Below, one piece after another: positions 50,818 through 60,072 of a stretch of DNA of 64,000 bases (its first letter is position 1; each line of letters begins with the position of its first letter). The stretch is taken from positions 1-64,000 of the forward strand of contig NZ_CAXQBR010000029.1 in assembly GCF_964222135.1 (NCBI RefSeq), in the 5' to 3' direction. A program made the position numbers and the translations under genes. This stretch comes from Euzebya sp. Its GTDB lineage: Bacteria > Actinomycetota > Nitriliruptoria > Euzebyales > Euzebyaceae. The notes under the pieces are model-generated. The model was not told where the DNA came from. It saw nothing but the letters and a program-made list of their open reading frames with translations, and did not search any database.

Positions 50818-50904
50818 CGCCGGCGGCCGGCGGACTTCAAGGCCGTCGTCCGCACCGCTAGATTGACCCCCGTCCCAGCGCCCCGACGTGGAAGGAAGCC
50901 CCGC

Positions 50905-51498
50905 ATGACCGACGCCGCAGCCGCCCCCATCCGCGTCCTGATCGCCGAGGACGAGGCGCTGATCCGCCTCGACCTCAAGGAGATGCTGGTCGAGGAGGGC
51001 TTCGAGGTGGTGGCGGAGGTCAGCGACGGGGCGACCGCGGTCCGCATGGCGCGCGAGCTGCGCCCCGACCTGTGCATCCTCGACCTCAAGATGCCGGTGA
51101 TGGACGGCATCCAGGCCGCGGAGCAGATCACGAACGAGCGGCTGTCGGCGGTCCTCATCCTGACCGCCTTCAGCCAGCGCGACCTGATCGAGAAGGCGCG
51201 CCGCGCCGGGGCGATGGCGTACCTGGTCAAGCCCTTCCAGAAGCACGACCTGCTGCCCGCCATCGAGATCGCCGCGGGCCGCTTCAAGGACCTGCAGGGG
51301 CTCGAGGCAGAGGTCGGGACCCTGACCGACCGGCTCGAGGCCCGCAAGGTCGTCGAGCGGGCGAAGGGGCTCTTGATGGAGCACGAGGGCATGACCGAGC
51401 CCGCGGCGTTCCGCTGGCTGCAGAAGGCGGCGATGGAGCAGCGGCTGACCATGAAGATCATCGCCGAGCAGGTCATCGCCGACCACGAGGCGCCCTGA
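50905..51498 (+). CDS. Response regulator with ANTAR RNA-binding output domain
   Basis: A 197-residue regulator resembling mycobacterial PdtaR. The receiver domain has RVLIAEDEALIRLDL (acidic pair), CILDLKMPVMDGI (phospho-accepting Asp), LILTAF and YLVKPFQ (Lys). Residues 130-190 form an ANTAR domain (RLEARKVVERAKGLLMEHEG, then EPAAFRWLQKAAMEQRL), which binds tandem hexaloop hairpins in mRNA and prevents termination. AAGGA precedes the ATG. No cognate kinase is adjacent. The two amino acid importers downstream are possible targets, but I did not find a clear ANTAR hairpin pair. Confidence 0.92.
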   Translation: MTDAAAAPIRVLIAEDEALIRLDLKEMLVEEGFEVVAEVSDGATAVRMARELRPDLCILDLKMPVMDGIQAAEQITNERLSAVLILTAFSQRDLIEKARRAGAMAYLVKPFQKHDLLPAIEIAAGRFKDLQGLEAEVGTLTDRLEARKVVERAKGLLMEHEGMTEPAAFRWLQKAAMEQRLTMKIIAEQVIADHEAP

Positions 51499-51575: not shown

Positions 51576-52502
51576 GTGAAGATCACACGTTTCACCTGGC
51601 TCGTCGCGCTGATGGCCGTCCTCGCCCTGGGGGCTGCCGCCTGCGGATCGGACGACGGGGGTGATGCTGCCACCGACGACACCGAGGCGATCGAGGACGT
51701 CGCCTCCGAGGCCGGTGACGCCGTCGACGAGGTCGCCGACGGGGCCGAGGACGCGCTCGGGGAGGCCGAGGCGTCGGCGGAGGAGGCCGCGGACTCCGGT
51801 GACCTGGGTCTGGCCGCCGAGGGGCAGATGGTCGTCGGGTCGGACATCGCGTTCGAGCCGTTCGAGTCGATCGTCGACGGCGAGCCGGTCGGCTTCGACA
51901 TCGACCTGATGGACGAGATCGCAAGCCGGATCGGTGTCGAGGTGGAGTACCAGAACACGCCGTTCGACACGATCTTCACCCAGCTCGCGAGCGGGGCGTT
52001 CGACGCCATCATCTCCGCCATCACGATCACCGACGAGCGCGACGAGACGATCGACTTCTCCGAGCCGTACTTCGCCGCGAACCAGGCCCTCGCGACCCCT
52101 GAGGGCTCGGACATCACCGGTGTCGCCGACCTCGGCAGCGAGACGGTCCTGGCCGTCCAGGCGGCAACCACCGGCGCGGACTACGCGTCGGAGACCTTCA
52201 CCGACGCCCAGATCCAGGAGTTCCCCACCTCCATCGACGCGTTCACCGCGATGGCCGCCGGCCAGGTGGACGCCGTCTTCATCGACCTGCCCGTCGTCGG
52301 CGAGCAGGTCGAGCAGGGCAACGCGGTGCTGGCCGAGGAGGTCGACACCGGCGAGCTCTACGGCATCGGCGTGCAGGAGGGCAACACCGCCCTCGTGACC
52401 GCGATCAACGGCGCGCTCGAGGAGATCATCGCGGACGGCACCTACGCCGAGATCTACGGCGAGTGGTTCGAGGGCGACGTCCCCGAGCAGTTCGCCAGCT
52501 GA
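51576..52502 (+). CDS. Polar amino acid ABC transporter, substrate-binding lipoprotein
   Basis: A 308-residue binding protein. A signal peptide ends at the lipobox LGAAAC, followed by an unusually acidic Ala/Asp/Glu stretch of about 55 residues. The SBP family 3 fold then begins at MVVGSDIAFEPFESIVDGEP and continues with GFDIDLMDEIASRIGV and TDERDETIDFSEPYF. Such proteins deliver glutamate, glutamine, arginine or similar substrates. GTG 51576 has AAGGGG upstream. A terminator-like hairpin separates it from the permease, which would give excess binding protein. Confidence 0.9.
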   Translation: MKITRFTWLVALMAVLALGAAACGSDDGGDAATDDTEAIEDVASEAGDAVDEVADGAEDALGEAEASAEEAADSGDLGLAAEGQMVVGSDIAFEPFESIVDGEPVGFDIDLMDEIASRIGVEVEYQNTPFDTIFTQLASGAFDAIISAITITDERDETIDFSEPYFAANQALATPEGSDITGVADLGSETVLAVQAATTGADYASETFTDAQIQEFPTSIDAFTAMAAGQVDAVFIDLPVVGEQVEQGNAVLAEEVDTGELYGIGVQEGNTALVTAINGALEEIIADGTYAEIYGEWFEGDVPEQFAS

Positions 52503-52513
52503 CCCAGCCGCAC

Positions 52514-52542
52514 GCACCCCCCGCCGCTCCGGTGGGGGGTGC
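52514..52542 (+). terminator. Intercistronic terminator-like hairpin
   Basis: GCACCCCCC (52514-52522) and GGGGGGTGC (52534-52542) form a 9-bp stem around 11 bases, 12 bp after the binding-protein stop. Partial termination here would lower permease and ATPase levels relative to the binding protein. Confidence 0.6.
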
Positions 52543-52668
52543 TCGCGTTCCGCGGCCCCTGGGTTCTGCGACTCTGCGCTCCGTGATCCTGCGGCCACCC
52601 GGCAGCCACTTCGCCTCCGCGCGGCAGAACATGTGCGAACATGACCGGCCATCGATCACAGCGAGGCC

Positions 52669-53832
52669 ATGACGGACACCACCGACGCTCGCGACGCGGT
52701 GCCGGCGGCGACCCCGCCGACGACCGGTCGGACGACCCCAGAAGCCGGCGACACGGCGCCCACGGCGGCGCTGGTCCTCGGCCTGCTCGCCCTCGTGGCG
52801 GCGCCGGTCGTGCTGTGGGTCGTCGACGTCGGGATCGCCGGTCTCGCCGTGCCGGTCGTCGGGTACGCCGCCAACGCACTGGCAAGGTCCTACGCCGCCC
52901 GGATCGACTACAGCCCTCCCGGCGACGGCGTGATGCGCCGGGCGCAGACCGGGCGCCTGGCCGGGATCGCCGGTGCCCTGGTGTTCGCCCTGGGCGGGCT
53001 CGTCACCTGGGTGGTCGGCAACGACCAGCTGGCCAGCCTGGGCACGCTGCTGTTCAACCCGGAGTTCTTCACCGAGGCGTTCCCCACCCTCCTGGCCGAG
53101 GGGCTGCGGATCACGCTGATCGTCTGGGTGGTCGCCGTCGTCCTCGGCCAGGTCCTCGGCGTGGTGCTGGCCCTCATGTCGATCTCGCGGCGGTTCCTGA
53201 TCCGGGCGCTGGCGAGCGTCTACATCGACATCTTCCGCGGCCTCCCGGCCATCATCACGATCGTCCTGGTCGGCTTCGCCCTGCCGCTCGCCGGCCTGCG
53301 GCCGTTCGGCCGCAACCAGATCTGGTACGCCGCGTTCGCCCTCGGCCTCGTCGCCACGGCCTACATCGGCGAGATCGTCCGCGCCGGCATCCAGTCGATC
53401 GAGGGCGGGCAGATGGAGGCAGCCCGGAGCCTCGGCATGCCCCACCAGCTGGCGATGCGGCTGATCGTGATCCCCCAGGGCATCCGCCGGGTCGTCCCGC
53501 CGCTGACGAACGAGTACATCGCCCTGCTGAAGGACACCTCGCTGATCTTCATCATCGGGCTGCCCGCCAGCTCGGGGTCGTTCTTCCAGGGACGGGACCT
53601 CTTCAGGGTCGGCCAGAACCTGGCGCAGCAGTACGGCAACTACTCCCCGGTCGTGCTGGCCGGCATCTTCTACCTGGTCCTCACCATCCCGCTGACGCGG
53701 CTGACCAACTACCTCGACCGGCGCCTCCGCGAGGGCCGGTCGGCGGAGGAGCGGTCGGTCGCCGCCGACGACGACGTGGTCGACGTCGGTGCCACGCACG
53801 GCCACGGCGGGGCGATCGGGGGCGGCGCGTGA
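52669..53832 (+). CDS. Polar amino acid ABC transporter, permease
   Basis: A 387-residue permease. The first 120 residues are extra to the family core: a Thr/Ala-rich start and two hydrophobic segments ([21 protein letters not shown] and [20 protein letters not shown]). The HisM/GlnP core begins near [20 protein letters not shown] and has [32 protein letters not shown] (EAA loop), [20 protein letters not shown] and SLIFIIG. The His-rich C-terminal tail is unusual. Its stop overlaps the ATPase GTG. Confidence 0.9.
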
Positions 53833-54566
53833 CGGCCACGCCGCGGGTCGAGCTGCGGGACCTCCGGAAGTCCTTCGGGAACCTCGAGGTCCTCACCGGC
53901 ATCGACCTCGCCATCCAGACCGGTGAGGTCGTCGTGGTCGTCGGACCCTCCGGGTCGGGGAAGTCGACCATGCTGCGCTGCGTCAACCTGCTCGAGGAAC
54001 CGACGGGCGGGGCGGTCCTGCTCGACGGCATCGACATCACCGAGGAGGGGGTGAACGTCGACCGGATGCGCCAACGCGTCGGGATGGTCTTCCAGCAGTT
54101 CAACCTCTTCCCGCACATGACGGTCCTGCAGAACGTCACCGTCGCCCTCCGCAAGGTCAAGCGCATGGCGAAGGCGGAGGCGAACGACATCGGCCTCGCC
54201 CGGTTGCGCGAGGTCGAGCTGGCGCACAAGGCCGACGTCCGGCCGGCGCAGCTGTCCGGCGGCCAGCAGCAGCGGGTCGCGATCGCCCGAGCGCTCGCGA
54301 TGGCACCCGAGGTGATGCTCTTCGACGAGGTCACCTCCGCCCTCGACCCCGAGCTGGTCAAGGGCGTGCTCGACGTGATGGGCGACCTCGCCTCCCGCGG
54401 GATGACGATGATGGTCGTCACCCACGAGATGGGCTTCGCCCGCGAGGTCGCCGACCGCGTGATCTTCATGGACGGGGGCGTCGTCGTCGAGGACGGCCCG
54501 CCCGCGCAGATCATGGAGGACCCGCAGAGCGAGCGCCTGAAGGTCTTCCTGAGCCAGGTGTTGTGA
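53829..54566 (+). CDS. Polar amino acid ABC transporter, ATP-binding protein
   Basis: A 245-residue GlnQ-type ATPase. Walker A is GPSGSGKST, the Q loop [17 protein letters not shown], the signature [15 protein letters not shown], Walker [16 protein letters not shown] and the H loop VTHEMGFA. It powers import with the preceding permease, to which it is coupled by a GTGA overlap. The gene for the LivH-like permease begins 37 bp after its stop, suggesting that both importers share a transcript. Confidence 0.95.
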
Positions 54567-54603
54567 GTCCCGTCCTGTGACAACCCCCGATCGAGGAGTG
54601 ACC

Positions 54604-55950
54604 GTGCGATCCACCGCGTCGAGGAGAGGACGCTGGGCCTGGCTGGTGGTGATGACCGCCGTGCTCGCCGCCGCGCTGCTGGTGCCCTCCGCCGCGGGGG
54701 CCCAGGACGAGCAGGGCGAGCGGGCCCTGGGTCGGGTCTTCAGCGGCACCGGTCAGGATCAGGAGCGCCACGCCGGGGTGACGATCACGGTCACCGACGC
54801 GGAGGGGGCCGAGGTCGGGTCGGCCGAGACCGACGACAACGGCGAGGTGCTGATCGACCTGCCCGGCCCGGGGGAGTACACCATCGCCCTCGACCCGGCC
54901 ACGCTGCCGGAGGGGCTGCTGCCCCGCGACGACGTCACCGAGCGCACCCAGACCGTCCAGGCGGGCCGTCAGGCGAACGCGCTGTTCCCGCTGGTGGAGG
55001 GGGACGGCACGGGACAGCCGGTCGCCGGCGCGGGGGACCGCGGGCGCTCGTTCACCGACCAGCTCGGCAGCGTCCCCCAGCTGACCCTCGACGGCATCAA
55101 GCTCGGGTCCATCATCGCCATCACGGCGATCGGCCTGTCCCTGATCTTCGGCACCACCGGCCTCATCAACTTCGCCCACGGCGAGCTGGTCACCCTCGGC
55201 GCGGTCGTGGCGTTCTTCTTCAACGCCTCGGCGGGCGGGCCCCGCTGGCACCTCCTCCTCGCCGTCGTCCCCGCGGTGCTGGTCGGCGCGCTGGGCGGCG
55301 CGACGCTCGAGACCGCCGTGTGGCGGCCCCTGCGTCGCCGCGGCGTCGGCCTGATCTCGATGCTGGTGATCTCGATCGGCCTGATGTTCGTGATCCGGAA
55401 CGTCATCCTGATCGTCTACGGCGGCGGGACCCGACCGTTCGCCGACTACAACATCCAGTCCGCCATCCGCTTCGCGGGCGTCGCCATCCCCCCGCGGGAC
55501 CTGGCGATCATCGTCATCTCCCTGGTGGTCCTCGTCGGCGTCGGGCTGATGCTGAACCGCACCCGGATCGGCAAGGCGCTCCGCGCCGTCGCGGACAACC
55601 GCGACCTGGCGGAGTCGTCCGGCATCGACGTCGAGCGGGTCATCCGCTTCGTGTGGCTCCTCGGCGGGGGGCTGGCGGCCTTCGGGGGCGTCCTGCTGGG
55701 GTCGACCGAGCAGGTCAACCAGAACATGGGCTTCAACCTGCTGCTGCTGATGTTCGCCGGGATCATCCTCGGCGGGATCGGGACCGCTTACGGCGCCATG
55801 GTCGGATCGCTGATCGTCGGGATCGTGAGCCAGGTGTCCACGGCGTTCTTCAGCGTCCAGCTCAAGTTCGTGTGGGCGCTGCTGATCCTCATCATCGTCC
55901 TGCTGATCCGGCCACAGGGCCTGCTCGGCCGTCGAGAGCGCTTCGGGTAG
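54604..55950 (+). CDS. livH: Branched-chain amino acid ABC transporter permease (LivH) with extra N-terminal domain
   Basis: A 448-residue protein. A signal-peptide-like segment (LVVMTAVLAAALLVPSAAGAQ) is followed by about 100 residues containing a predicted beta-sandwich (HAGVTITVTDAEGAEVGSAE, then TDDNGEVLIDLPGPGEYTI), of carboxypeptidase-regulatory-like type. The LivH membrane core starts near LTLDGIKLGSIIAITAIGLS and shows TTGLINFAHGELVTLGAV, RTRIGKALRAVADNRDLAES and GIILGGIGTAYGAMVGSLI. Usual LivH proteins have about 290-310 residues and lack this front part. GTG 54604 has GAGGAG five bases upstream. Confidence 0.88.
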   Translation: MRSTASRRGRWAWLVVMTAVLAAALLVPSAAGAQDEQGERALGRVFSGTGQDQERHAGVTITVTDAEGAEVGSAETDDNGEVLIDLPGPGEYTIALDPATLPEGLLPRDDVTERTQTVQAGRQANALFPLVEGDGTGQPVAGAGDRGRSFTDQLGSVPQLTLDGIKLGSIIAITAIGLSLIFGTTGLINFAHGELVTLGAVVAFFFNASAGGPRWHLLLAVVPAVLVGALGGATLETAVWRPLRRRGVGLISMLVISIGLMFVIRNVILIVYGGGTRPFADYNIQSAIRFAGVAIPPRDLAIIVISLVVLVGVGLMLNRTRIGKALRAVADNRDLAESSGIDVERVIRFVWLLGGGLAAFGGVLLGSTEQVNQNMGFNLLLLMFAGIILGGIGTAYGAMVGSLIVGIVSQVSTAFFSVQLKFVWALLILIIVLLIRPQGLLGRRERFG

Positions 55951-55963
55951 CGGGAGAACTGCG

Positions 55964-57001
55964 ATGGAGCTCACCAACGTCCTGTACGACGGCCTCCGCG
56001 CCGCGATCGGCCTCGAGGCGGTCGTCTACGCGCTGGCCGCGATCGGCCTGAACATCCACTTCGGCTACACCGGCCTGCTGAACTTCGGGCAGGTCGGGTT
56101 CATGCTGCTCGGCGCCTACGGCGTCGCGATCACCGCACGGCCGTGCGCCGACGTGGCGGCGACCCAGACCGCCGCGGAGCAGATCGGCCCGTGCGGGCAG
56201 CCCCTCGCCCTCGGCGTCCTCGTCGGCATCGGCCTGGCCGTGGTGCTGGCCCTGCTGCTCGGGGTCCCGACCCTCCGCCTGCGGGCGGACTACCTCGCGA
56301 TCACGACGATCGCGGCCGGGGAGATCCTGCGGTTCGTGTTCCGCTCGGATTCCGCGCAGGCGCTGACCAACTCGGTGTTCGGCATCCAGCAGTTCGCCGG
56401 CGACATCTACGCGATCAACCCGATCCCGGACGGCCGCTACTTCGGCCAGCTGAACTTCTCCGAGCGCCAGCTCTGGGTGATGGTGCTGGGCTGGGGGCTC
56501 GTGGCGCTGCTGTGCGCGTGGACGTGGCTGCTCATGCGCTCGCCGTGGGGACGGGTGCTCAAGTCCATCCGCGAGGACGAGGACGCCGCCCGCGCCCTCG
56601 GCAAGAACGTGTTCAGCTACAAGATGCAGGCGCTGGTCCTCGGCGGCGTGTTCGGCGCCCTGGGCGGGATCTTCCTCGCCATGGGCACCCAGGCGGTCAA
56701 CCCCGACACCTACATCCCCATCCGGACGTTCTTCGCCTACGTCATCATCATCCTGGGAGGGACCGGCACGATCCTCGGGCCCGTGGTCGGCACGTTCCTG
56801 TTCCTGTTCCTGACCGCCGGCCTCGAGACGCTCATGCGCGAGCTGATCACCGGCGGCGTGATCAGCGAGGCGGTGATCGGCCTGCCCGAGGTCGGCCCCA
56901 TCCGCTTCATCATGGTCGGCCTGATGCTCGCGCTGCTCATGGCGTTCAGGCCGCAGGGCCTGCTCGGCAACCGAGAGGAGATGCTGCTCGATGCCCGTTG
57001 A
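55964..57001 (+). CDS. livM: Branched-chain amino acid ABC transporter permease (LivM)
   Basis: A 345-residue permease with eight to ten membrane segments. ALAAIGLNIHFGYTGLLNFG is the family's early block, TLRLRADYLAITTIAAGEIL the next, and RVLKSIREDEDAARALGKNV the cytoplasmic coupling loop, with GTGTILGPVVGTFLF near the end. An extracytoplasmic loop has two cysteines (PCADVAATQTAAEQIGPC), probably a disulfide. It begins 13 bp after livH, and livG starts before its end. Confidence 0.94.
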   Translation: MELTNVLYDGLRAAIGLEAVVYALAAIGLNIHFGYTGLLNFGQVGFMLLGAYGVAITARPCADVAATQTAAEQIGPCGQPLALGVLVGIGLAVVLALLLGVPTLRLRADYLAITTIAAGEILRFVFRSDSAQALTNSVFGIQQFAGDIYAINPIPDGRYFGQLNFSERQLWVMVLGWGLVALLCAWTWLLMRSPWGRVLKSIREDEDAARALGKNVFSYKMQALVLGGVFGALGGIFLAMGTQAVNPDTYIPIRTFFAYVIIILGGTGTILGPVVGTFLFLFLTAGLETLMRELITGGVISEAVIGLPEVGPIRFIMVGLMLALLMAFRPQGLLGNREEMLLDAR

Positions 57002-57929
57002 GGAGACCGAGCCCACGTCGTCGTCGCGGGTCGCGGACCCGTCCGCACCGTCGCGTGCCGCAGCGGCACGGGCGGCGCTCGCGGACGTGCCGGCCGAGCC
57101 GGGGGTCCCCAAGCCCGACCCGGTGCTGATCGTCGACGGGGTCACCCGCCGCTTCGGCGGACTCACCGCCGTCGACGTGGAGCACCTCGAGATCCAGCGC
57201 GGGCTGATCACCGCGCTGATCGGCCCGAACGGCGCCGGCAAGACCACCTTCTTCAACCTGATGACCGGCTTCGACCGGCCCGACGAGGGGACCTGGTCCT
57301 TCGACGGCCACGACCTGGGTGGCGTGCCGGCGCACAAGGTCGCCCAGTACGGGATGGTCCGGACCTTCCAGCTGACGAAGTCCCTCAACCTGATGAGCGT
57401 CATCGAGAACATGCGGCTGGCTGGCACCGGCCAGACCGGTGAGCGGTTCCTCCCCGCGATCATCCCGGGGATGTGGCGGTCCCAGGAGCGGGCGATCACC
57501 GAGCGGGCGGACGAGCTCCTCGCGCGCTTCAAGCTGGACGCGAAGCGCGAGGACCTGGCCGGGACGCTGTCCGGCGGGCAGCGCAAGCTCCTCGAGATGG
57601 CCCGGGCGCTGATGGTGGAGCCGGAGCTCGTGTGCCTGGACGAGCCGATGGCGGGGGTCAACCCGGCGCTGGTCCAGTCCCTCCTCGGCCACGTGAAGGG
57701 CCTGCGGGACGAGCTCGGCATGACCGTCGTCTTCGTCGAGCACGACATGGACGTCGTCATGGACATCTCCGACTGGGTCGTCGTGATGGCGGAGGGACGG
57801 GTGATCGCCGAGGGCCCGCCGGCATCCATCGGCACGAACGAGACCGTCGTCCGGGCCTACCTGGGCGGTTCGGAGGGGGAGGGCGAGATGTCCCTCGCCG
57901 ACATCGAGGCAGCGGAGGACACGCCGTGA
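56991..57929 (+). CDS. livG: Branched-chain amino acid ABC transporter ATPase (LivG)
   Basis: A 312-residue ATPase. Walker A is GPNGAGKTT, the family insertion VRTFQLTKSLNLMSVIENMR follows, the signature is LSGGQRKLLEMARAL, Walker B LVCLDEPMAGVNPAL and the H loop VFVEHDMDVVMD. An Ala/Ser-rich N-terminal extension of about 40 residues precedes the ABC core, longer than usual. It overlaps livM by 11 bases and livF by four. Confidence 0.94.
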   Translation: MPVEETEPTSSSRVADPSAPSRAAAARAALADVPAEPGVPKPDPVLIVDGVTRRFGGLTAVDVEHLEIQRGLITALIGPNGAGKTTFFNLMTGFDRPDEGTWSFDGHDLGGVPAHKVAQYGMVRTFQLTKSLNLMSVIENMRLAGTGQTGERFLPAIIPGMWRSQERAITERADELLARFKLDAKREDLAGTLSGGQRKLLEMARALMVEPELVCLDEPMAGVNPALVQSLLGHVKGLRDELGMTVVFVEHDMDVVMDISDWVVVMAEGRVIAEGPPASIGTNETVVRAYLGGSEGEGEMSLADIEAAEDTP

Positions 57930-58783
57930 GCGACCAGCCCACCCCGGACGCCCCCACCCACGACCAGCAGATCGCCGCGGAGCGCCAGCGCGTCGTCGAC
58001 GAGGCCGCCGGCCACCACGGCGCCGAGGCGCTCAGCGAGGCCGGCCGGCCGCCCAGCCCCGAGGAGTCGATCCTGTACGCCGAGGAGGTGGTCGCGGGCT
58101 ACGTGCCCGGCGTCGACATCCTGACCGGCACCAACCTCCACGTCCGCGAGGGCGAGCTGGTCGGCATCATCGGCCCGAACGGCGCGGGCAAGTCCACGTT
58201 GATCAAGGCGATGTTCGGGCTCGTCGACATCCGCAGCGGCCGGGTCGTGCTGCGCGACGACGACATCACCGGCCTGACGGCCCACGAGCTGGTCGACAAG
58301 GGCGTCGGCTACGTCCCCCAGACGAAGAACGTGTTCCCCTCGCTGACGATCGAGGAGAACCTCCAGATGGGGATCTACCTGCGGCCCAAGCAGTTCGCGG
58401 AGCGGTTCGAGTTCGTCGCCGGCCTGTTCCCCAAGCTGCTCGATCGCCGCAAGCAGCGCGCGGGGTCGCTGTCGGGCGGTGAGCGCCAGATGGTCGCGAT
58501 GGGCCGCGCGCTGATGATGGACCCCGGCGTGCTGTTCCTCGACGAGCCGTCTGCCGGCCTCTCACCGGCCAACCAGGGCGTGGTCTTCCACCGCGTGAAG
58601 CAGATCAACGACGCCGGCGTCACGATCGTGATGGTCGAGCAGAACGCCCAGCAGTGCCTGCGGATCTGCGACCGCGGCTACGTCCTCGACCAGGGACGTG
58701 ACGCGTACACCGGCACCGGGGACGAGCTGCTCCACGACCCGAAGGTCGTGGAGCTCTACCTCGGCACGCTCGTCAAGGCCTGA
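57926..58783 (+). CDS. livF: Branched-chain amino acid ABC transporter ATPase (LivF)
   Basis: A 285-residue ATPase. About 50 acidic, Gln/Ala-rich residues precede the core. Walker A is GPNGAGKST, YVPQTKNVFPSLTIEENLQM is the LivF Q-loop region, LSGGERQMVAMGRAL the signature, VLFLDEPSAGLSPAN Walker B and IVMVEQNAQQCLRICDRGYV the H-loop region (Q-N in place of His is normal for LivF). GTG 57926 overlaps livG. It is the last gene of the importer array; no LivK-type binding protein follows. Confidence 0.94.
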   Translation: MSDQPTPDAPTHDQQIAAERQRVVDEAAGHHGAEALSEAGRPPSPEESILYAEEVVAGYVPGVDILTGTNLHVREGELVGIIGPNGAGKSTLIKAMFGLVDIRSGRVVLRDDDITGLTAHELVDKGVGYVPQTKNVFPSLTIEENLQMGIYLRPKQFAERFEFVAGLFPKLLDRRKQRAGSLSGGERQMVAMGRALMMDPGVLFLDEPSAGLSPANQGVVFHRVKQINDAGVTIVMVEQNAQQCLRICDRGYVLDQGRDAYTGTGDELLHDPKVVELYLGTLVKA

Positions 58784-58787
58784 CGGG

Positions 58788-58805
58788 GGAGGGGCCTACC
58801 CCTCC
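58788..58805. terminator. Convergent-gene hairpin
   Basis: GGAGGGG (58788-58794), CCTA, CCCCTCC (58799-58805). It lies just after the livF stop, and its loop contains the stop codon of the minus-strand thioredoxin gene, so it could end transcription from both sides. Confidence 0.5.
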
Positions 58806-59530
58806 TCCGCTGGCGCCGGCTCCTCGCCCGCAGCCAGGGCGGTCGCCTGCTCGAACTGCTCGGGCTCGATCCGGCCCGCGTAGCGGGCGACGACCTCGCC
58901 CTCGGCGTTGACGAAGGTCCACATCGGGGTGCCCTGCAGACCCCAGGCGTCGGCGATCGCGTCCTCGGAGTCGACGATCACCTGGCCCGGCCAGCCCTCG
59001 CGCTCCAGCCACTCGTCCGGCGGCCAGTTCGGGCGGGACGGGTCGTGGAACGTCGACACCGCGACGATCTCGACGCCGTCAGCGACCAGGCCCTCCTCGA
59101 CCCAGTCGGCGACCAGCGGCGCCTCCTCCTGGCAGTGGGGGCACCAGTGCGCCATGAACGCGATGGCCTGGGCCTGCCCCTCGGCGCCGATCGTGATCGG
59201 GTCGCCCTCAGGCGTGAACCCGGTGGCGTCCGGGGCGTCCATCCCTACCGCGGCGTCGTCAGCCCCCGCGGAGGTGGCGGGCGGCAAGGCCGTCTGGCCC
59301 TCCTCGATCGTGGCGGCCTCGACGCCGAGGCTGGCGTCGCTGCCCTGGATCAGCAGGTAGCCGATGCCGCCGACCAGGGCGACGCCGACCAGGACGGCCA
59401 GGACCATGAAGACGGTCCGCTGGGCGCCGGCCTTGCGCTGCTGCTGGGCCTCCCGGTCCAGGCGCTCCTGGCGTCGGGCCTTCTGGCGCTCCCGCTTGGA
59501 CATCTCATCGGGGTTCATGTCTGTGCTCAT
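58796..59530 (-). CDS. Membrane-anchored thioredoxin-like protein
   Basis: A 244-residue protein. A highly charged cytoplasmic start (SKRERQKARRQERLDREAQQ) precedes one transmembrane helix (VFMVLAVLVGVALVGGIGYL). An extracytoplasmic TlpA/DsbA-like domain follows, with active site FMAHWCPHCQEEAPLVADW and cis-Pro block WGLQGTPMWTFVN. WCPHC resembles DsbA-type oxidoreductases. The next gene on this strand, upstream, is DsbB, with a four-base ATGA overlap, so the pair probably forms a disulfide-generating relay. Confidence 0.88.
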   Translation of the reverse strand: MSTDMNPDEMSKRERQKARRQERLDREAQQQRKAGAQRTVFMVLAVLVGVALVGGIGYLLIQGSDASLGVEAATIEEGQTALPPATSAGADDAAVGMDAPDATGFTPEGDPITIGAEGQAQAIAFMAHWCPHCQEEAPLVADWVEEGLVADGVEIVAVSTFHDPSRPNWPPDEWLEREGWPGQVIVDSEDAIADAWGLQGTPMWTFVNAEGEVVARYAGRIEPEQFEQATALAAGEEPAPAEEG

Positions 59531-60072
59531 CGGACGAGCTCCTCCTTCGTGGCCTCGCGACCGCTGCCCGCCGTCGCGGAGGACCGGGCGGCCCAGGCCA
59601 GCGCGATGATGGCGATGAAGCCGGCACCGGCCATGGTCGGGATGGTGATGAAGCCGAACCGCTCGACCCAGATGGCCGAGCAGGGGTTGTTCGGGTCGCA
59701 GAACTGCGCTGACGTGTCTGCCGGCAGCCGCTGGATGATGACGTGCCAGATGCTGGTGACCACGCCGAAGAGGGCCAGGGGCAGCGTGTACGCGAGCGCG
59801 TCGGTGCGACGTCGCAGCAGGGCCGTGGTGGAGATCACCGCGGTCGAGTACATGAAGATCCGCTGCCACCAGCACAGCTCGCAGGGCACGTAGCCGGCGA
59901 TCTCGGAGAGGTACAGGCTGCCGACCGTCGCCGTGCCGCTGATCGCCGCGGTCGCGCCGACCGCGTGCGGGCGCATCCACGCGCGGAACGGCGCGGACAC
60001 GACCAGTGCGACGGCCCCGACCACGGCCACGAGGGCCAACAGGGCGAAGAGGGTGGTCAGGGCGAGCGTCAT
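59527..60072 (-). CDS. DsbB-family disulfide bond formation protein
   Basis: A 181-residue protein with four main hydrophobic helices. PCELCWWQRIFMYSTAVI is the DsbB quinone-linked CxxC motif, and QFCDPNNPCSAIWVERFGF the second, extracytoplasmic cysteine pair. DsbB reoxidises a thioredoxin-like partner and passes electrons to quinone. Coupling to the WCPHC protein supports a two-component oxidative folding system. An extra N-terminal helix is present compared with the E. coli protein. Confidence 0.88.
   Translation of the reverse strand: MTLALTTLFALLALVAVVGAVALVVSAPFRAWMRPHAVGATAAISGTATVGSLYLSEIAGYVPCELCWWQRIFMYSTAVISTTALLRRRTDALAYTLPLALFGVVTSIWHVIIQRLPADTSAQFCDPNNPCSAIWVERFGFITIPTMAGAGFIAIIALAWAARSSATAGSGREATKEELVR

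Follow-up and report, generated by a model that had tools for sequence, protein, structure and literature searches.

A LivH-type importer permease of Euzebya with an exported-looking beta-sandwich domain at its N terminus

Binding-protein-dependent importers are usually described as a binding protein, a permease pair and ATPases. We were particularly interested in a LivH-type permease of Euzebya sp. that carries a further domain in front of its membrane core, and in what such a domain might do in the importer. The open reading frame lies on the plus strand at exactly 54604-55950 of the 64,000-nucleotide stretch of contig NZ_CAXQBR010000029.1 that was analyzed (the window), and runs from a GTG start to the stop over 448 residues. 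A Shine-Dalgarno-like GAGGAG (54593..54598, plus strand) is located 5 bases upstream of GTG 54604. Four parts follow each other on the same strand: a signal-peptide-like segment with a basic start, a hydrophobic helix (6-26) and an AGA end followed by Q (residues 1-33, 54604..54702); a beta-sandwich domain of the CarboxypepD_reg / SdrD_B / transthyretin-like fold (residues 35-133, 54706..55002); a poorly conserved linker of low identity and low pLDDT (residues 134-156, 55003..55071); and the LivH-type permease core covered by PF02653 (residues 157-448 and stop, 55072..55950). The sequence-only reading had proposed this anatomy, with a signal segment, a carboxypeptidase-regulatory-like beta domain and a LivH core, and both sequence and model supported it. 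The extra N-terminal beta-sandwich of this LivH permease is confirmed.

Internal starts that would remove the domain were inspected. GTG 54994 (residue 131) is the sole in-frame candidate that would cut away most of the domain; its preceding 20 bases contain no Shine-Dalgarno-like sequence, and the domain stands. A full-length profile search, with a query that favours extended forms, returned at least 80 named loci. Among the matches listed, 78 of 80 had a start codon 110 or more codons ahead of the first core motif, including two (L166 and L167) whose chosen start fell inside the domain; L172 ends at a contig edge and L175 escaped the motif, with domain residues visible in both. Pairwise identity was 0.375 over the domain and 0.564 over the core, versus 0.17 over residues 131-158. 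The dN/dS values, which are rough because some pairs are near saturation, were 0.08-0.51 for the domain (12 usable pairs of 13) and 0.03-0.34 for the core (13 pairs), and exceeded 0.8 for the linker in 5 of 12 pairs. The domain is under purifying selection. A start-codon artefact was ruled out by the start positions in relatives, the dN/dS values and the start-site inspection.

The core was matched by PF02653 (BPD_transp_2) at residues 162-433 with 158.4 bits against a Pfam cut-off of 26.8. It scored below the curated cut-off of the E. coli-type LivH model NF008011 (128.7 vs 379 bits), and its best NCBIfam match, UrtB of urea importers (TIGR03409), was also below cut-off (167.1 vs 250.3 bits), so that a urea permease was rejected. 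Proteobacterial UrtB probably also bears an exported N-terminal extension. No UrtB over the cut-off was found in four plasmid records. The best structural match of the core was BtuC (1l7v; Z 15.3, rmsd 5.0, 253 aligned), a resemblance of moderate weight because helical bundles reach Z of about 13 by common arrangement. Partner subunits are encoded in one operon with livH, in an order common to relatives: a livM-type permease (55964..57001; PF02653, 153.5 bits), a livG-type ATPase (56991..57929; ABC_tran and BCA_ABC_TP_C) and a livF-type ATPase (57926..58783; ABC_tran, best NCBIfam match LivF, GTG start picked by eye), all on the plus strand. The window protein shares with LivH of LivKHMGF systems (PF02653, NF008011) the permease core, the LivM, LivG and LivF partners and, in relatives, the linkage to LivK. 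It differs in the exported-looking N-terminal beta-sandwich and in its score below the curated LivH cut-off.

The whole protein was modelled by AlphaFold2 with a mean pLDDT of 89.6 and a pTM of 0.84, pLDDT falling to 57 near residues 141-150 of the linker. Eight strands lie within residues 39-133 of the model, and the domain predicted alone gave a well-modelled all-beta sandwich (pLDDT 91.0). Its top structural neighbours were SdrD B-domain chains, followed by pilin, CnaB2 and transthyretin-like proteins (8vdk, Z 13.2, rmsd 2.3, 98 aligned; 8bdw, Z 11.3, rmsd 2.4, 94 aligned). These matches extend over most of the predicted domain and place it in the SdrD B / CnaB / transthyretin-like fold. 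The window sequence alone scored 19.6-23.1 bits with CarboxypepD_reg (PF13620), under the Pfam cut-off of 32.3, and other beta-sandwich families also matched ahead of the permease below cut-off. For alignments, 64 of the 80 named loci were combined with the window (A2; 16 near-duplicate, partial or unresolved loci were dropped), and 62 of these 65 rows formed A4. At E<=0.01, CarboxypepD_reg matched 61 of 62 aligned domains (best 1.8e-12), SdrD_B 50 and SpaA 40; DUF4198 was matched by 30 of the 62. A smaller alignment of the window and 20 hand-picked orthologs (A1) matched adhesins and other beta-domain proteins among PDB sequences at E<=1, and no permease. The pieces and the fold are already known. 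A description of this LivH fusion was not found among the open-access papers searched, a set that lacks most subscription journals.

G80, Y92 and P102 are invariant in A1, and the conserved domain columns are mostly Gly, Pro and hydrophobic, with few polar ones at >=70% (T76, D97). No Lys or Asn column reached >=70% among the 65 rows. The domain shares fold and sequence family with SdrD B, CnaB and CarboxypepD_reg modules, but it is fused to an importer permease and has no conserved isopeptide Lys or Asn column; an isopeptide-forming CnaB or pilin-type module was rejected because the residues for the bond are not conserved. Wall sensing had also been suggested in the sequence-only reading. Modules of cell-wall-anchored adhesins and pilins head the structural matches, and the domain could resemble the stalk-like units of SdrD and pilins and bind or sense a wall polymer. 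However, a single module is presumably too short for a stalk, the Pfam scans matched no wall-binding family and the fold serves many other purposes, which makes wall contact improbable. Some proteins of transthyretin-like fold bind small molecules, and the domain could likewise trap a substrate or metal close to the entrance. The DUF4198 matches and a weak match of the window domain to NikL (19.3 bits vs a cut-off of 100) are in line with this, but the scarcity of conserved polar columns and the presence of LivK argue against it, and we give ligand binding a slim chance. The earlier suggestion of substrate capture agrees with the transthyretin-like fold and with nothing beyond it.

Permeases with fused substrate-binding domains include GlnPQ and OpuA. 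Like these, the window LivH would have a permease-tethered outside domain; unlike them, it has a separate LivK, and no binding-protein fold was found in its domain, which matched beta-sandwich families only in the Pfam scans and was modelled as all-beta. NikK and NikL of nickel/cobalt importers are described as additional components replacing NikN (PMC2667541). They resemble the present domain as importer accessory subunits, but they are separate proteins of ECF-type metal importers and the NikL match is far under cut-off.

The modelled helix 6-26 is followed by AGA and QD around residues 31-35, and A33 is nearly invariant in the 21 rows of A1, which share a plan of hydrophobic start segment, AxA-type end, domain, linker and core. 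The N terminus looks exported, with a signal-peptide-like segment and an AxA end ahead of the domain. A signal-site scan was positive for 65 of 65 rows, but under a permissive rule whose chosen sites frequently lay within the hydrophobic stretch, and it was given no weight. Basic residues cluster at 243-251, at 320-343, which we take to be the coupling region, and at the C terminus; if the modelled helices alternate, these clusters would place the N terminus on the outside. The argument is only moderate because loop 273-297, expected outside, is also fairly basic (2.34 basic residues on average). The domain itself is strongly acidic, with 17.7 acidic vs 6.5 basic residues. From sequence and model, an extracytoplasmic position of the domain is probable. 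All seven loci of the Nonomuraea group (L146, L147, L151, L158, L160, L163 and L177) have a Cys pair, with one residue preceding the domain and the other close to its end. Such a pair would possibly suit a disulfide joining the domain ends outside the cell.

The same fusion was searched for in relatives. When only the core was searched against 396 phylum genomes at E<=1e-50, 68 matches were obtained from 65 genomes. The domain was present in 56 of 67 classified matches and missing from 9, with 2 cut by contig ends; G041, outside the 67 classified, also carries it, so that 57 of 68 close permease matches have the fusion. A tree of core columns, rooted on seven other LivH-family rows, united the 56 rows that have the domain, together with one cut row and a single domain-less row, G183, in one clade with SH-aLRT 98; the tree was a quick one made without bootstrap, with 26 of 71 inner branches open. 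The other domain-less rows fell outside this clade. The simplest reading seems to be one gain and one loss of the domain. In the G183 lineage (L261, L286-L289) the beta-sandwich is missing and a signal-peptide-like start stands directly before the first core helix. Within the G183 family, 4 of 150 genomes had the permease at E<=1e-60, all matching the domain-less query nearly full-length, and three of the four were examined as sequence. In family f15, whose sister forms lack the domain, the protein begins just ahead of the first core helix.

The loss in G183 allows a domain that is merely tolerated as a passenger without function, and the domain had a higher dN/dS than the core in 10 of the 12 usable pairs. 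However, the clade shows a single loss among 58 rows despite wide divergence, and domain dN/dS stayed at <=0.51; a passenger is very improbable. At E<=1e-8, a profile of the domain had matches in 60 of the 396 genomes, some hits being very long non-LivH frames, and within the window's own genome it matched LivH and, weakly, a 2,320-residue frame. In a look beyond actinobacteria, 13 plasmid records were matched, and >=80% query coverage was reached only in the two actinobacterial ones (Nonomuraea and Arthrobacter). Two extended LivH copies each were present in G042 (L091) and G039 (L078/L079). The copies pair across genomes on the tree, indicating that a second extended paralog exists.

The sequence-only reading had also noted that the importer genes lack their own LivK. 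This holds inside the 64-kb window, where no LivK was found in or outside the importer operon, but not genome-wide. The genome has 12 Peripla_BP_6 matches, 10 over cut-off, including a LivK ortholog on another contig (G000:C109:64294-65676) of the type that is convergent just past livF in many relatives' neighbourhoods. Among the matches listed, a LivK relative (BLAST E<=1e-8) was found at 67 of 80 named loci, downstream and convergent in 63 of these 67, and at 61 of the 62 loci with >=5.6 kb downstream. In the sister genomes G001, G002 and G003, livH and the ortholog share a contig, the ortholog lying 14.6-18.3 kb downstream and convergent, and in G002 genes of this contig's right end neighbour genes near the C109 LivK. 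Local displacement combined with an assembly break would fit this synteny better than relocation of LivK far away, which was rejected. The C109 LivK would then be the partner of this importer. No LivK match at E<=1e-20 was found in G005, a 160-contig draft with an extended LivH, or in G004.

With a LivK ortholog in the genome and LivK beside the operon in most relatives examined, the domain as a LivK stand-in was rejected. The retention of LivK beside the operon suggests that the domain works alongside LivK, not in its place, and the domain appears to have been added to an already complete importer. The ortholog LivK starts with LLAIVAAACA, a lipobox-like motif. On the other hand, the same broad LivK type adjoins domain-less sister permeases (L084, L085, L268-L271), indicating that LivK does not need the domain.

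An exploratory test compared domain distances with partner distances, with the core and the remaining subunits as controls, on 50 of 64 loci and then on 36 thinned loci. Co-variation of the domain with LivM was significant (0.228, p 0.001 for 50 loci; 0.203, p 0.006 for 36 loci), raw correlations being low and one of four partners tested being significant. Co-variation with LivK was not significant (0.092, p 0.086; 0.101, p 0.11), and LivG (-0.025) and LivF (-0.005) gave no signal in the 50 loci. The LivM signal speaks for contact at the outward side of the two permeases. The earlier idea that the domain docks a binding protein is possible but weakly supported, as its significant co-variation was with LivM and not with LivK.

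These observations would fit the following scheme. LivH of a complete LivKHMGF-type importer may have gained, once, a signal peptide and an SdrD-B/CnaB-like beta-sandwich. The signal peptide would carry the N terminus across the membrane, with probable cleavage after residue 33, and the domain would then stay outside, tethered to the first membrane helix through about 20 linker residues. There it may serve as a scaffold on the extracytoplasmic side of the LivH/LivM pair, positioning or retaining lipid-anchored LivK. The fixed architecture across classes, the single clade and the purifying selection count for this scaffold, as do the basic-residue pattern, the acidic domain, the Nonomuraea Cys pair, the LivK kept beside the operon with its lipobox-like start, and the LivM co-variation. 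Against it count the non-significant LivK co-variation, the LivK beside domain-less sisters and the loss in one lineage. A LivM-contacting scaffold that helps to seat LivK is tentatively put forward, at somewhat less than an even chance.

Its main rival is a role in biogenesis or stability, in which the signal peptide and the folded outside domain would orient the first helix of LivH and stabilise LivH/LivM with no partner outside. In the extended clade the signal-like segment accompanies the domain, and the f15 sisters without the domain start just ahead of the first core helix; the co-variation is with LivM. The signal-like start retained in the domain-less G183 lineage also agrees with such a role. 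However, plain LivH permeases manage without the domain, and a selected, specific fold of 100 residues seems more than an insertion aid requires, so that we regard this role as unlikely, though well above the other alternatives.

For the scaffold reading, the broader form, that the LivH module touches LivM and controls the engagement of lipid-anchored LivK as a widespread actinobacterial importer design, is doubtful at present. If true, an accessory element absent from E. coli-type LivKHMGF would stand between the binding protein and the channel. Many actinobacteria retain, beside a normal binding protein, an outside module that was apparently joined to one permease in a single event; should this module steer either the binding protein or the partner permease, a control point has been overlooked in importers of single-membrane bacteria. 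The question can be tested with the natural lineage that lacks the domain and retains a signal-like start.

The genes around the operon were also recorded. A response regulator with an ANTAR domain, presumably PdtaR-like, is encoded at 50863-51498. Among the matches listed, a relative of it (>45% identity) was near extended livH at 26 of 72 named loci with >2.5 kb upstream, and it occurs near extended livH in many further relatives too. Between this regulator and livH, at about 51580-54566, lies a polar-amino-acid-type importer with an SBP_bac_3 binding protein and a BPD_transp_1 permease (Pfam) and an ATPase assigned by eye; relatives of all three parts are likewise placed at L065, L070 and L101, and not in most other relatives. 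Directly past livF, a redoxin/thioredoxin-like and a DsbB-like protein are encoded next to each other on the minus strand (58796-60072), an arrangement also present in G002.
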